A stretch of DNA of 64,000 nucleotides from Bdellovibrio sp. ZAP7 (lineage in GTDB: Bacteria > Bdellovibrionota_B > Oligoflexia > Oligoflexales > RGVZ01), in contig CAMDKS010000015.1 of assembly GCA_945900755.1 (NCBI GenBank), forward strand, positions 1 through 64,000, written 5' to 3'. Position 1 is the stretch's first letter. Every line of letters starts with the position of its first letter. The notes below the pieces were generated by a model, which had not been told where the DNA came from, did no database searches, and saw nothing but the letters and a program-made list of their open reading frames with translations. Shown one piece after another: positions 9,699 through 15,842 of the stretch. The translations under genes were made by a program, and so were the position numbers.

Positions 9699-11258
9699 AT
9701 GGGAAAGTACCAAACTATGTATGGAAAATGGATCCTCGAGATTTCCGCACCGATGGCCGTCGTTTTTGCAGTCTATGCCGTTTCAATATATGCCTCGGCA
9801 ATTTCTGCCGCAGAGCGGTCAGGTCCTCACGCCGATGCCTCATTGTTTAGTTTTGAAATGATGTTAATTGAAGAGCATATTTCGATTGCTCAAGACGATG
9901 AACTAAATTTAATAGAGCTTAAAATCGCGAGAATCCTGCAGAATAATCCCAACGACCTATCGGCGAACTATTTGATGTCGACTCTGCTATTAAAAATGTT
10001 CACACTTGACCCAGGATCCTATTCACTGATTCGACAAAGCACAGAATTAGCTTCTCAAACCTACGATCTCGATCCAAAAAGCGAACTTGGAATCGCAGCA
10101 CTCGCTAGCATTCTTGAAGTAACTGGTGAGGCAGAGCGGGGTCTAGCACTAATTAAAGAGGCCGGAGCCACAGGTCTGCGCTTAGGATGGCATACAAATC
10201 TTGTCAAAGCGCGCCTACTAACTGAAGTCACTCATGCTGGCGGCCTCGACGAAGTGCTGTCGGTTCTAGGAGATGTATTAACCGATTCAAATGCGTCGAG
10301 GAAACTAGTTGCGCCGATACTTGCCGACGTCATCAGAATGAAATACGAAAAGCGCCATGGGCTTGACGAAATCGATGCTCTTGAGACTTGGAGTAAACTC
10401 TGCCCTTCAATCGAAATGACCTTAGAGTTGGCCAATGCAAATGCCCAAAATTTAAATTACAAAAAAGCTTATGCGGAATATGAAAAAATACTTTTAAAAG
10501 TACCCACACACACCGAATCCCTGATTAGCCAAGGCATCATTGCTCAAGCAAGTCTTCACAATCTAACTCTAGCCATACATAAATTTAAGGCCGCCATTGC
10601 CACCACAACCAATCCAGCGTTTGAAGGTCCTGCCAAAATTCATTTGGCCCTTGCCCTAATCGAGCAAAATACGAATCTCGAAGCTTCAAAATTGGCATCC
10701 CTTGACGCCATCAAGTCGAGCAGAGATCAAGAAAAAATACTCCTAGCCATCCTTGCAGCCTATCGCAGAACGTCCACAGCAACGGCCACCTTAGCCCTTC
10801 TAAAAGATCTCGAACAATCAGTTCCGGGATTGGCGTTAGGACATGCGTTGATGGCCGAAATGCTAGCCGAAGGACTCCACCTCTTTGATGAAGCGACCAC
10901 CTCGTTTACCAATGCTATTACTTTGGATCCTAGTCGCAGTGAATATTATAATGGACGCGGACTTGCTTGGATGGGCTTAGCAAACCTTGAAGCGGCATTA
11001 GATGATTTTGAAGCGGCGGCGGCCGTCAATCCAGACGATGCTTCGGCTCGCTATAATACCGCCTGCGCACAAGCTAGACTTGGGCGACAAGACGATGCAC
11101 TTGCGTCCCTTCGCCAATCTTTTGAATTGGATTTCCGACTGCAAACACTTGCCAAGTCCGACGAGGATTTGCTCTCCATGAGATCAGAGCCCCGCTTTGA
11201 GGCCCTAGTAAATTTGGACCTGCGGTCGGGAAAAGAACCTCTTAACGTGGGCCACTAA
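9699..11258 (+). CDS. TPR repeat protein
   Basis: Repeated TPR units (YYNGRGLAWMGLANLEAALDDFEAAAAVNPDDASARYN). Confidence 0.8.
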   Translation: MGKYQTMYGKWILEISAPMAVVFAVYAVSIYASAISAAERSGPHADASLFSFEMMLIEEHISIAQDDELNLIELKIARILQNNPNDLSANYLMSTLLLKMFTLDPGSYSLIRQSTELASQTYDLDPKSELGIAALASILEVTGEAERGLALIKEAGATGLRLGWHTNLVKARLLTEVTHAGGLDEVLSVLGDVLTDSNASRKLVAPILADVIRMKYEKRHGLDEIDALETWSKLCPSIEMTLELANANAQNLNYKKAYAEYEKILLKVPTHTESLISQGIIAQASLHNLTLAIHKFKAAIATTTNPAFEGPAKIHLALALIEQNTNLEASKLASLDAIKSSRDQEKILLAILAAYRRTSTATATLALLKDLEQSVPGLALGHALMAEMLAEGLHLFDEATTSFTNAITLDPSRSEYYNGRGLAWMGLANLEAALDDFEAAAAVNPDDASARYNTACAQARLGRQDDALASLRQSFELDFRLQTLAKSDEDLLSMRSEPRFEALVNLDLRSGKEPLNVGH

Positions 11259-12438
11259 GGCTTCTCGGATAAATTAAAATCTTGGCCGCTTTGTCAATAT
11301 AGGAACGAATGCCTTCGTGCCAAAATGGATCTTCAAGACTAAAGTCTTTCCCCATGAATTTTTGATCCGATTTTTGGGAGCCATAGATTAGCTTCATGGG
11401 AAGAGTTTTATAATCGTATTCGTAGGGCGGATCCTTCCACCCAAAACCACCGTTTCCGAGCTCAATGGCAGCGCGAATGAGGGCAATGGACAAGTCCAGA
11501 CTGCGAATGGCACGACAATCCGTTACGTGAATCTGCAGGCCTCTACAGGTCTTTCCCATCCATTTTTGGGACGTCGGCTCAAATTGCGCACTCCGCAAGA
11601 AAACACCCGGTGAAGTGCCGCCAAGAAGCTTGAGAACCATGTTTCGATAAGCGTCGCCTTCTGGCAAATATGGAGCGCCAATGAATTGAAACGGAAGTCC
11701 TGTGCCTCGCCCCTCCGACAGGTTGGTACCCTCGAAAATGACGGTGCCCGGATAGACATAGACAGAATCAATGGTTGGTAGGTTGGGCGATGTCAGTACC
11801 CAGGTGCGTTCGAGATCACACCAGTACGATTTTGGATCCCAATGTTGAAGTTCCACGACCTGCAGATCACAAGCAATACTTTGGTTAAAGAATTTTGCAG
11901 CTTCGCCCGCAGTTAAAGCGTGACGCATTGGAATCGGAAATTCGCCGACAAACGATGTGCTGTCACTATCTAGAACTCGACCCTCGCATATTTCGCCGCC
12001 GACAGGATTGGGGCGATCGAGAATGACCACTTTTTTTCTGTACTTTACGGATGCGCGCATGCAGGCAGCAATGGTCGCCTTCCAAGTATAAATGCGGCAC
12101 CCTGTTGTTTGAAGATCGATCACAATCGTGTCTACATTCTGTAACATTTCCGCGGTTGGCTCCCGAGTTTCCGAATACAAGCTATATAACGGAACGCCAA
12201 ACGACACGTGCTTCATGTGCTTCGTTTCAATCATGTTATCTTGACTGGTGCCATAAAATCCGTGTTGAGGCCCAAATAAGGCCGTCAAGCGCGACCCTAA
12301 AATCGTCGACAGCACCGTCCAAGCAGGCACCATCTCAGAGGTCACCGATGCTTGATTGCAGACGAGGGCACATCGCCCCCATTTATTTGCAAGGGAGGCA
12401 TCCGCAGCTAGACGCTCAAGACCGACGATACACTTCAT
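11242..12438 (-). CDS. DUF1343 family protein (NamZ/YbbC-like, possible exo-N-acetylmuramidase)
   Basis: NQASVTSE, LFGPQHGF, VIDLQTTGCRIYTW, LDRPNPVGG, EGTNLSEGRGTGLPFQFIGAPY. Confidence 0.88.
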   Translation of the reverse strand: MKCIVGLERLAADASLANKWGRCALVCNQASVTSEMVPAWTVLSTILGSRLTALFGPQHGFYGTSQDNMIETKHMKHVSFGVPLYSLYSETREPTAEMLQNVDTIVIDLQTTGCRIYTWKATIAACMRASVKYRKKVVILDRPNPVGGEICEGRVLDSDSTSFVGEFPIPMRHALTAGEAAKFFNQSIACDLQVVELQHWDPKSYWCDLERTWVLTSPNLPTIDSVYVYPGTVIFEGTNLSEGRGTGLPFQFIGAPYLPEGDAYRNMVLKLLGGTSPGVFLRSAQFEPTSQKWMGKTCRGLQIHVTDCRAIRSLDLSIALIRAAIELGNGGFGWKDPPYEYDYKTLPMKLIYGSQKSDQKFMGKDFSLEDPFWHEGIRSYIDKAAKILIYPRSLSGPR

Positions 12439-12694: not shown

Positions 12695-12921
12695 GAGGCG
12701 ATCCTCCATTTAATCGGGCCTGAACAAATTGTTCAAAACCTATGTTTCAAGATTTGAGATGCGTAGTATATTTTACGGCGAATTGCTAACCACAGTCAAA
12801 TATTCGAGAAATCATCCTGTTAGGTTTGCATCCATTGGCATTTTTTTGCAGGAATTGGAGAATTCCTAATATTTTTGATACAATTATTATTGAGATCAAA
12901 ACGATCTCATAGGCTATATGT

Positions 12922-13077
12922 CTAGGAAAGGAGGTGGTGTTGTGGGTTGTTTTCAACAAATCCCTTGTCGCATGGAGGTATGTGTCTCTTAGTTGAGGCG
13001 GATACCTGACAGCGAACAGCCGGCTCCCCTCCTTTCACAGCTAGTATCATGTTGGGGACGTCGGTTGCTTTTTTTTT
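12922..13077 (+). ncRNA. candidate structured small RNA/leader with Rho-independent terminator
   Basis: GAAAGGAGG (12926-12934) pairs with CCTCCTTTC (13028-13036); internal hairpins at 12944-12964 and 12976-13007; terminator stem CAGCCGGC-U-CCCC / GGGG-AC-GTCGGTTG followed by T9. Confidence 0.55.
13017..13077 (+). terminator. Rho-independent terminator
   Basis: 8 bp + 4 bp stem with one internal mismatch, 24-nt loop, then TTTTTTTTT at 13069-13077. Confidence 0.65.
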
Positions 13078-14420: not shown

Positions 14421-15842
14421 TCAAAAAAGATCCTCTATCGATATCAAGGCATCAAAATAGTCTTGAAAATAATCTTCATCTTCAAGCTGCCCATGATAAA
14501 TCAAAACAGGTCGAACTGAGAAATTTCGAGGCTTTCTAAGAAATTCAATCTTCTTCTTCACTTCATCAACTATGGATTTGCCAATTTTTTCCCGAAATTT
14601 TACTTCACAAGCATATGCAAGCCCATTTTTCAGCTCTATCAACAGATCAATTTGGCATGCACCTTTTGTTTTAGCGGATTTCGTCTGAAAATAGGGACCC
14701 GCCGCGACGATCATATTTGGGTCTAGTTTCAGAGCCGATACAATATCAACCAAATTCGCGAGTATCAGGTTCTCTACCTGTAATCCCATAATTGTATTCC
14801 ATTGGGTTAGGGATCCTAGATGTGTGTTCTGATATAATTTACCAGCTATTTTGCTTTTTTCGGGTTCAATGTAACGCAAATAAAAGCGCAAATAATTATC
14901 AGAGATCCGGTACCGACTAAGTTTTGCTGGGGTTTTACTACCTAGTATATGTGAGTAGTCTCGCGCAATGAATCCCGAATGTTCGATGTCCGTAAGATAT
15001 CTTGATATTGAACCGTTCTGCTCAACTTTAAGTTTTACACAAATCTCCTGAGTGGAAAGATGCCCCTTCAAAAGCAATCGAATGATTGACCGATATTTTT
15101 TTGACCGTCGATCAAATATGTCATTAAAAATCCTATCAAACTCATGAAGCAAAAAACCCTGTGGTTCAAAACAGAGCGTTTTGATGTTTTGTTCCGCAGT
15201 AAGTTTGCTATTCACCTCTTCGAGATACCGCGGCACACCTCCAGTGACTGAGAGTATTTTGATTTTGTCAGTTGCCCTCATTCGAGACTGAGGGTCCATC
15301 AATTGACTGCTTTCTCTGAGGTTTAGCTCCCTTAAGTCAATTGTTGCCGATAGTCGGCCAACAAAATCCGCAGAATTCAAAATATTTTCCTCAATCCACG
15401 AAGAAACCGACCCACAGACCAACACAATTAGTTTGGAAAACCTGGAAAGCTTAACGTCCCAGGAAATTTTGAGACGGCCCGCAAAATCAGGGTCATGAGC
15501 CCCCATCCACGAGATTTCATCTAAGAGGACCAATGATCGCTCGCTCTTAAGAGTTATTGCGAGGGCGTCGAAGGCGTCTGTCCACGTTTTAACGTTCATT
15601 CTGGGAATATTTGTTTGCCTAACAAGCTCCTCGACAAAATGATCCAACTGGTCTTGATTTGTCTGTCCTGGCCGAGGACTTAATCCTTGAAAACTTAAGA
15701 ATTTTTTCTGGGTTTTGCCAAATTCTGCAGCCAATGCACTTTTGCCAATGCGCCGCCTTCCCTTGCAAACCACAAGACTGGCAGTCTTTTTTTGTGTAAG
15801 GGCTGTGATTGCGGCTAGTTCTGGTTTTCGACCGATAAACAA
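14421..15842 (-). CDS. AAA family ATPase with winged-helix and DUF234-type PD-(D/E)XK-like C-terminal domain
   Basis: FIGRKPELAAI, CKGRRRIGKSAL (Walker A), SLVLLDEISWMG (Walker B), C-terminal CQIDLLIELKNGLAYACEVKF. Confidence 0.85.
   Translation of the reverse strand: MFIGRKPELAAITALTQKKTASLVVCKGRRRIGKSALAAEFGKTQKKFLSFQGLSPRPGQTNQDQLDHFVEELVRQTNIPRMNVKTWTDAFDALAITLKSERSLVLLDEISWMGAHDPDFAGRLKISWDVKLSRFSKLIVLVCGSVSSWIEENILNSADFVGRLSATIDLRELNLRESSQLMDPQSRMRATDKIKILSVTGGVPRYLEEVNSKLTAEQNIKTLCFEPQGFLLHEFDRIFNDIFDRRSKKYRSIIRLLLKGHLSTQEICVKLKVEQNGSISRYLTDIEHSGFIARDYSHILGSKTPAKLSRYRISDNYLRFYLRYIEPEKSKIAGKLYQNTHLGSLTQWNTIMGLQVENLILANLVDIVSALKLDPNMIVAAGPYFQTKSAKTKGACQIDLLIELKNGLAYACEVKFREKIGKSIVDEVKKKIEFLRKPRNFSVRPVLIYHGQLEDEDYFQDYFDALISIEDLF

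Follow-up and report, generated by a model that had tools for sequence, protein, structure and literature searches.

An intergenic segment at positions 12911-13077 of the window (the whole stretch of DNA analysed, 64,000 nucleotides) had been described in an earlier note as a candidate structured RNA with an extended Shine-Dalgarno (SD) sequence, a copy of the anti-SD and a strong terminator, and this description raises the question of what the locus encodes and by what means its product might act.

Distribution and gene context of the element

Homologues were found by similarity search in the genus and the order, and a covariance model search located the element in 28 of 43 Oligoflexales genomes at 29 places, with one copy per genome except for one genome with two; in the phylum sample's remaining 15 genomes this model detected no element, and families f4, f5, f7 and f11 gave no element match. 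The two-SD pattern returned the same set as the covariance model, minus one genome (G005, in which the second SD reads GGGGG) and plus one chance match, and by both methods the rest of the phylum sample was empty save for an unrelated low-complexity match (G028). Among 84,980 species genomes, scanning with a pattern picked out 19 contigs, carrying the labels Oligoflexales, Oligoflexia, Oligoflexus, Pseudobacteriovorax or unspecified Proteobacteria. A viral origin was rejected, the pattern being absent from viral contigs. The genome with two copies (G025) holds, in addition to locus L055, a second, diverged copy (L069, contig C18) with different neighbours.

In a search of Rfam 15, covering the window and 16 homologous loci, no match at the element had a covariance-model score that reached the gathering threshold. 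6S RNA, likewise a small, stable and structured RNA of similar size, was rejected as the identity, since the element fails the RF00013 model and the genome carries its own 6S RNA, the RF00013 match, elsewhere (G000:C26). Nothing relevant was found in the literature on small RNA in Oligoflexales or Oligoflexia. The predicted fold is more stable than those of shuffled sequences (z = -2.9).

The next gene is convergent, at a distance of about 140-260 nt, in seven loci (L025, L026, L027, L030, L035, L038 and L039), and the element is therefore taken to be a stand-alone unit and not a leader. The position expected of a riboswitch or cis-element, 5' of a conserved same-strand gene, was not found, as the downstream genes differ or are convergent: f1-g1 and f8 have a gene for an M14 zinc carboxypeptidase on the same strand, and other loci have differing co-directional genes (FabF-like, antiporter-like, PepP-like). 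A cis-acting switch for the downstream gene is thus excluded as the general role by the seven convergent loci. In many lineages the gene usually found upstream resembles that for oligoribonuclease, as called from a sequence motif and not from a family search. On comparative sequence grounds the element is a small stand-alone gene for a folded RNA, with a predicted stable product of about 185 nt, and the earlier proposal of an independent structured RNA holds, with homologues across the order and no Rfam family; an undescribed RNA family would thereby be added in a poorly studied bacterial order.

Promoter, SD sequence and RNA structure

The features recognised in the element are collected in Table 1.

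Table 1. Positions in the window of the features assigned to the element, and the basis of each assignment.
Feature	Position	Strand	Basis
Extended -10 promoter element, TGATACAAT	12876..12884	+	TGnTAnnnT 5' of P2 in homologues
Hairpin P1 (TGAGATC-AAAAC-GATCTCA), presumed RNA 5' end	12891..12909	+	Sequence; hairpin in homologues
Hairpin P2 (TAGGC-TATAT-GTCTA)	12910..12924	+	Compensating changes
SD1 linker GGAAAGGAGGTGGT, complement of 16S tail AUCACCUCCUUUCU, 14 bp including G-U	12925..12938	+	Duplex energy; 16S tails of relatives
Hairpin P3, base (RTGCT/AGCAY in homologues), enclosing the start codon	12937..12973	+	Pairing in homologues
Tiny ORF, GTG...TAG, 16 codons (MGCFQQIPCRMEVCVS)	12942..12992	+	Open frame, start at SD spacing
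Alternative helix P5 (TGTCGC with GCGAACA, bulged A)	12966..13018	+	Two-sided change; borderline overall test
SD2, GGAGGT within the ORF, 8 nt ahead of the last sense codon; 5' arm of P4	12974..12979	+	Fixed spacing
Hairpin P4, over SD2 and the stop codon	12974..13007	+	Predicted fold; 3' arm compensates in homologues (inspection)
Intrinsic terminator: 12-bp stem, 24-nt loop, T9	13018..13077	+	Sequence; CCGGC/GCCGG hairpin conserved
Anti-SD copy CCCCTCCTTTC, with CCTCCTTTC identical to 16S tail	13026..13036	+	Present in f1, f8 and L025

The -35/-10 pair previously put forward as the promoter (TTGAGA...CTATAT) was rejected, because TTGAGA forms the 5' side of P1 and CTATAT the loop of P2, both being conserved as RNA structure, and because a TGnTAnnnT -10 element lies further upstream; of 26 unique homologues, 23 have this -10 element upstream of P2, and shuffled upstream regions gave a mean of 1.9 and a maximum of 6. 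With the supposed promoter reassigned to P1 and P2 and the real -10 further 5', the element therefore starts near 12890 and not at 12911. P1 adjoins P2 in homologues, its sequence changing and its hairpin staying, and the pairs of P2 show double changes (GC/AT, TA/AT and others) across 26 homologues.

Directly 3' of P2 lies the SD1 linker, GGARRGGAGGTGRT. Because the 16S genes of relatives end in GGATCACCTCCTTTCTA, this linker pairs with the 16S tail over 14 bp including G-U; the extended SD originally proposed was confirmed in the sequence. The computed energy of the duplex is -23.5 kcal/mol for the window's SD1 and -23.5 to -24.8 kcal/mol for seven homologues. The 14-nt run of pairing is unique within the window, where the next best is 10, and the longest runs in 20 shuffled windows were 9-13. 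SD1 is invariant across lineages, including those that lack the anti-SD copy; its commonly variable positions are A/G (R), all facing U, and at L068 the first pair with 16S is lost.

Sequence inspection also confirmed the remaining 3' features of the earlier note, namely the anti-SD mimic, of which CCTCCTTTC at 13028-13036 copies the 16S tail, the terminator of a 12-bp stem (arms at 13018-13029 and 13054-13066) followed by T9 (13069-13077), and the sharing of bases 13028-13029 between the two. The anti-SD copy is absent in f6, f9, f10 and L039, although SD1 is invariant there. A U-run follows the CCGGC/GCCGG hairpin in f1-g1 and f8. In f6 and f1-g2 (L026, L030, L035, L038, L064-L067) a CCGG 3' hairpin is conserved without a U-run, and there it may not be a terminator.

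The competition suggested between SD sequestration and termination is plausible, from the modelled folds, in the window's family and f8, where the SD:anti-SD and terminator folds are nearly equal, and is not general, given the lineages without the anti-SD. The energy difference between the two folds is 0.1-1.0 kcal/mol for the window's element, L022, L034, L029 and L033, the gap in f1/f8 being within 0.5 kcal/mol in four of five cases and 1.0 in the fifth; at L008 and L025 the SD:anti-SD fold is favoured by 3-5 kcal/mol. Since several lineages have no anti-SD copy, the fold switch is a lineage feature and not part of the common core.

The base of P3 is weakened in the window; among 26 homologues each of its five positions is paired in 22-26 (G-C, G-U and A-U types), and the evidence for P3 is moderate, because the helix slid by -3 still pairs in 90 of 130 cells. 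P5, which competes with P3 for the same AGC, reads GTAGC/GCTAC in relatives with both sides changed in the window's clade, and its overall test was borderline, 1 of 300 shuffles having reached its value.

The short reading frame and its peptide

The tiny ORF, absent from the earlier note, is conserved with 14-18 codons among homologues. A start (ATG, GTG or TTG) at 6-12 nt after GGAGG, followed by an open frame, was found in all 20 representative homologues; in 2000 trials with only the variable loop shuffled, on average 2.2 and at most 8 passed. The test was made on the frame of the second motif with no stop before that motif, and on representatives that are related, not fully independent. 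The other two frames passed in 2 and 1 of the 20. A purely non-coding RNA was rejected on this test. The stop (TAG or TAA) is located exactly 6 codons past a conserved AYG/GCG codon in 20 of 20 representatives, and the distance from SD2 to the stop is fixed in all 29 loci tested; the last G of SD2, at 8 nt from the last sense codon, has an initiation-like spacing with the stop codon in the A site. A +1 frameshift of the RF2 type at the stop was rejected by eye, the last codon not being a conserved slippery one.

The peptide of 14-18 amino acids could itself be the product, as a signal, a toxin, an enzyme-modified peptide or a regulator, and conservation of the ORF, the strong SD and the alternation of starts among ATG, GTG and TTG agree with such a small-protein gene, as do the recurrence of E-V and S-S near the C-terminus and the frequency of Cys. 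However, the codon changes among close relatives are mostly nonsynonymous (42 against 10 synonymous, as pairwise counts within five small groups that include some changes more than once), with 21/29/20 changes at the three codon positions, most of all at position 2. At the nucleotide level the recurring S-S and E-V residues fall on the motifs AGTAGCAY (P3 arm) and GGAGGT (SD2), which may be under constraint for a different contact with RNA or protein. The peptides, for example MVCSNCTSSTEVNVC, vary and are polar, unlike the hydrophobic type I toxins. The peptide changes look neutral, the frame being kept and the peptide not, and we consider a small-protein gene unlikely.

Proposed ribosome engagement and competing modes of action

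Since evolution has kept the frame open but let the peptide sequence vary, ribosome engagement is probably how the RNA works, and the open frame with its drifting peptide points to translation itself as the function. The whole proposal, that the element represents a translated regulatory RNA of a new family, with an action of this kind and not one through its peptide, is one that we prefer tentatively, with somewhat less than even confidence. The features recognised are the promoter, P1 and P2, a 14-nt SD over the whole 16S tail, an open ORF, SD2 and a 3' CCGG hairpin, followed by a U-run in many lineages; at the sequence level they agree with a dual-function sRNA, a stand-alone RNA with its own promoter, terminator and a putatively translated sORF, although the U-run is lacking after the 3' hairpin in f6 and f1-g2. 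SD1 would capture a 30S subunit and the ribosome would then read the short frame, and SD2, lying 8 nt from the P-site codon with the stop in the A site, might by its geometry retain the ribosome at termination. When SD1 is unoccupied, the anti-SD arm of the terminator hairpin could close it in the window's lineage, and the fold would then switch with ribosome occupancy. In this way the RNA might act as a reporter or a sink of free ribosomes, or it might make its 3' half available for action in trans. The specific version in which ribosomes are parked, with capture of 30S by the full-length 14-bp helix, holding of the terminating ribosome by SD2, absorption or sensing of free ribosomes and an irrelevant peptide, is speculative and in our judgement improbable. 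The combination of a full-length SD at the start and SD2 at a fixed distance from the stop would allow a direct test of whether SD pairing holds a ribosome at termination, and the element would also let one ask whether bacteria sense or absorb ribosomes through an RNA.

Control of the M14 gene by attenuation, in which a ribosome on the leader ORF would free the terminator and its absence would allow SD:anti-SD pairing and read-through, is consistent with f1-g1 and f8, where a same-strand M14 gene downstream, the anti-SD copy and near-equal alternative folds occur together, and a leader ORF with an SD does lie upstream of a terminator. As to mutually exclusive terminator and antiterminator helices, f1 and f8 show the nearly equal folds, and f6, f9, f10 and L039 have no anti-SD arm. 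On the other hand, the element is kept where the next gene is convergent (the seven loci above, among which L027 and L025 retain the anti-SD) or unrelated, no run of regulatory codons is present, and about 290 nt separate the terminator from the likely M14 start in the window; we regard this role as quite unlikely. Titration of CsrA, with GGA motifs binding the CsrA dimer, is very unlikely. The element resembles CsrB/RsmZ in its repeated GGA motifs, its structured stand-alone RNA and its terminator, 35 of 41 genomes encode CsrA, and CACGGAGG fits the published CsrA site pattern, but there are just about 3 GGA sites, one of them variable (GGGGG instead of GGAGG at the second site of L022), a genome 96% complete (G011) has the RNA and no detected CsrA, and titration would need neither a 14-nt match to the 16S tail nor an open frame. 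Among genomes without the element, CsrA was also not detected in f4 and f7, and those of f11 mostly have it. Silencing in trans, by pairing of the anti-SD copy with mRNA SDs and with SD1 as an internal mask, would suit the identity of CCTCCTTTC to the 16S tail and its masking by SD1 in the predicted fold, and is hardly probable, as several families lack the anti-SD and retain everything else.

Further known systems may be compared with the translated RNA proposed here. The hok/sok system includes a toxin mRNA in which the SD is sequestered. The toxin mRNAs of the H. pylori aapA/Iso type I systems also show SD sequestration (PMC6733600), and both resemble the element in that intramolecular pairing can hide a small ORF's SD; the element differs from type I toxin mRNAs in that its peptide is neither hydrophobic nor conserved and the mask is not present in all lineages. 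The attenuator leader RNA and leader peptide of Sinorhizobium meliloti, rnTrpL/peTrpL, act in trans (PMC7298713) and share with the element a short RNA, a strong SD, a leader-size ORF, alternative helices and a terminator, but the element is without a downstream biosynthetic operon or a regulatory codon run, is in several lineages a stand-alone unit next to convergent genes, and has no conserved peptide. In Staphylococcus aureus, extended SD sequences are found at start sites of ordinary mRNAs and leader ORFs (PMC13009471), with similar extended SD:16S-tail pairing at small ORFs and GTG starts, whereas the element forms a structured RNA family of its own, in which a second SD lies close to the stop.

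Some features of the surrounding DNA were also noted. Near the element, a gene for a NamZ exo-beta-N-acetylmuramidase (11242-12438, minus strand) is conserved in several relatives. A 473-aa ATPase_2/DUF234 protein is encoded at 14421-15842 (minus strand), with the genes for the M14 peptidase and spermidine synthase on either side, and its gene looks like an insertion because those two genes are adjacent in relatives. Positions 1-62 of the window (minus strand) belong to the 5' end of a 16S rRNA gene (RF00177), and the contig therefore breaks at an rRNA operon.
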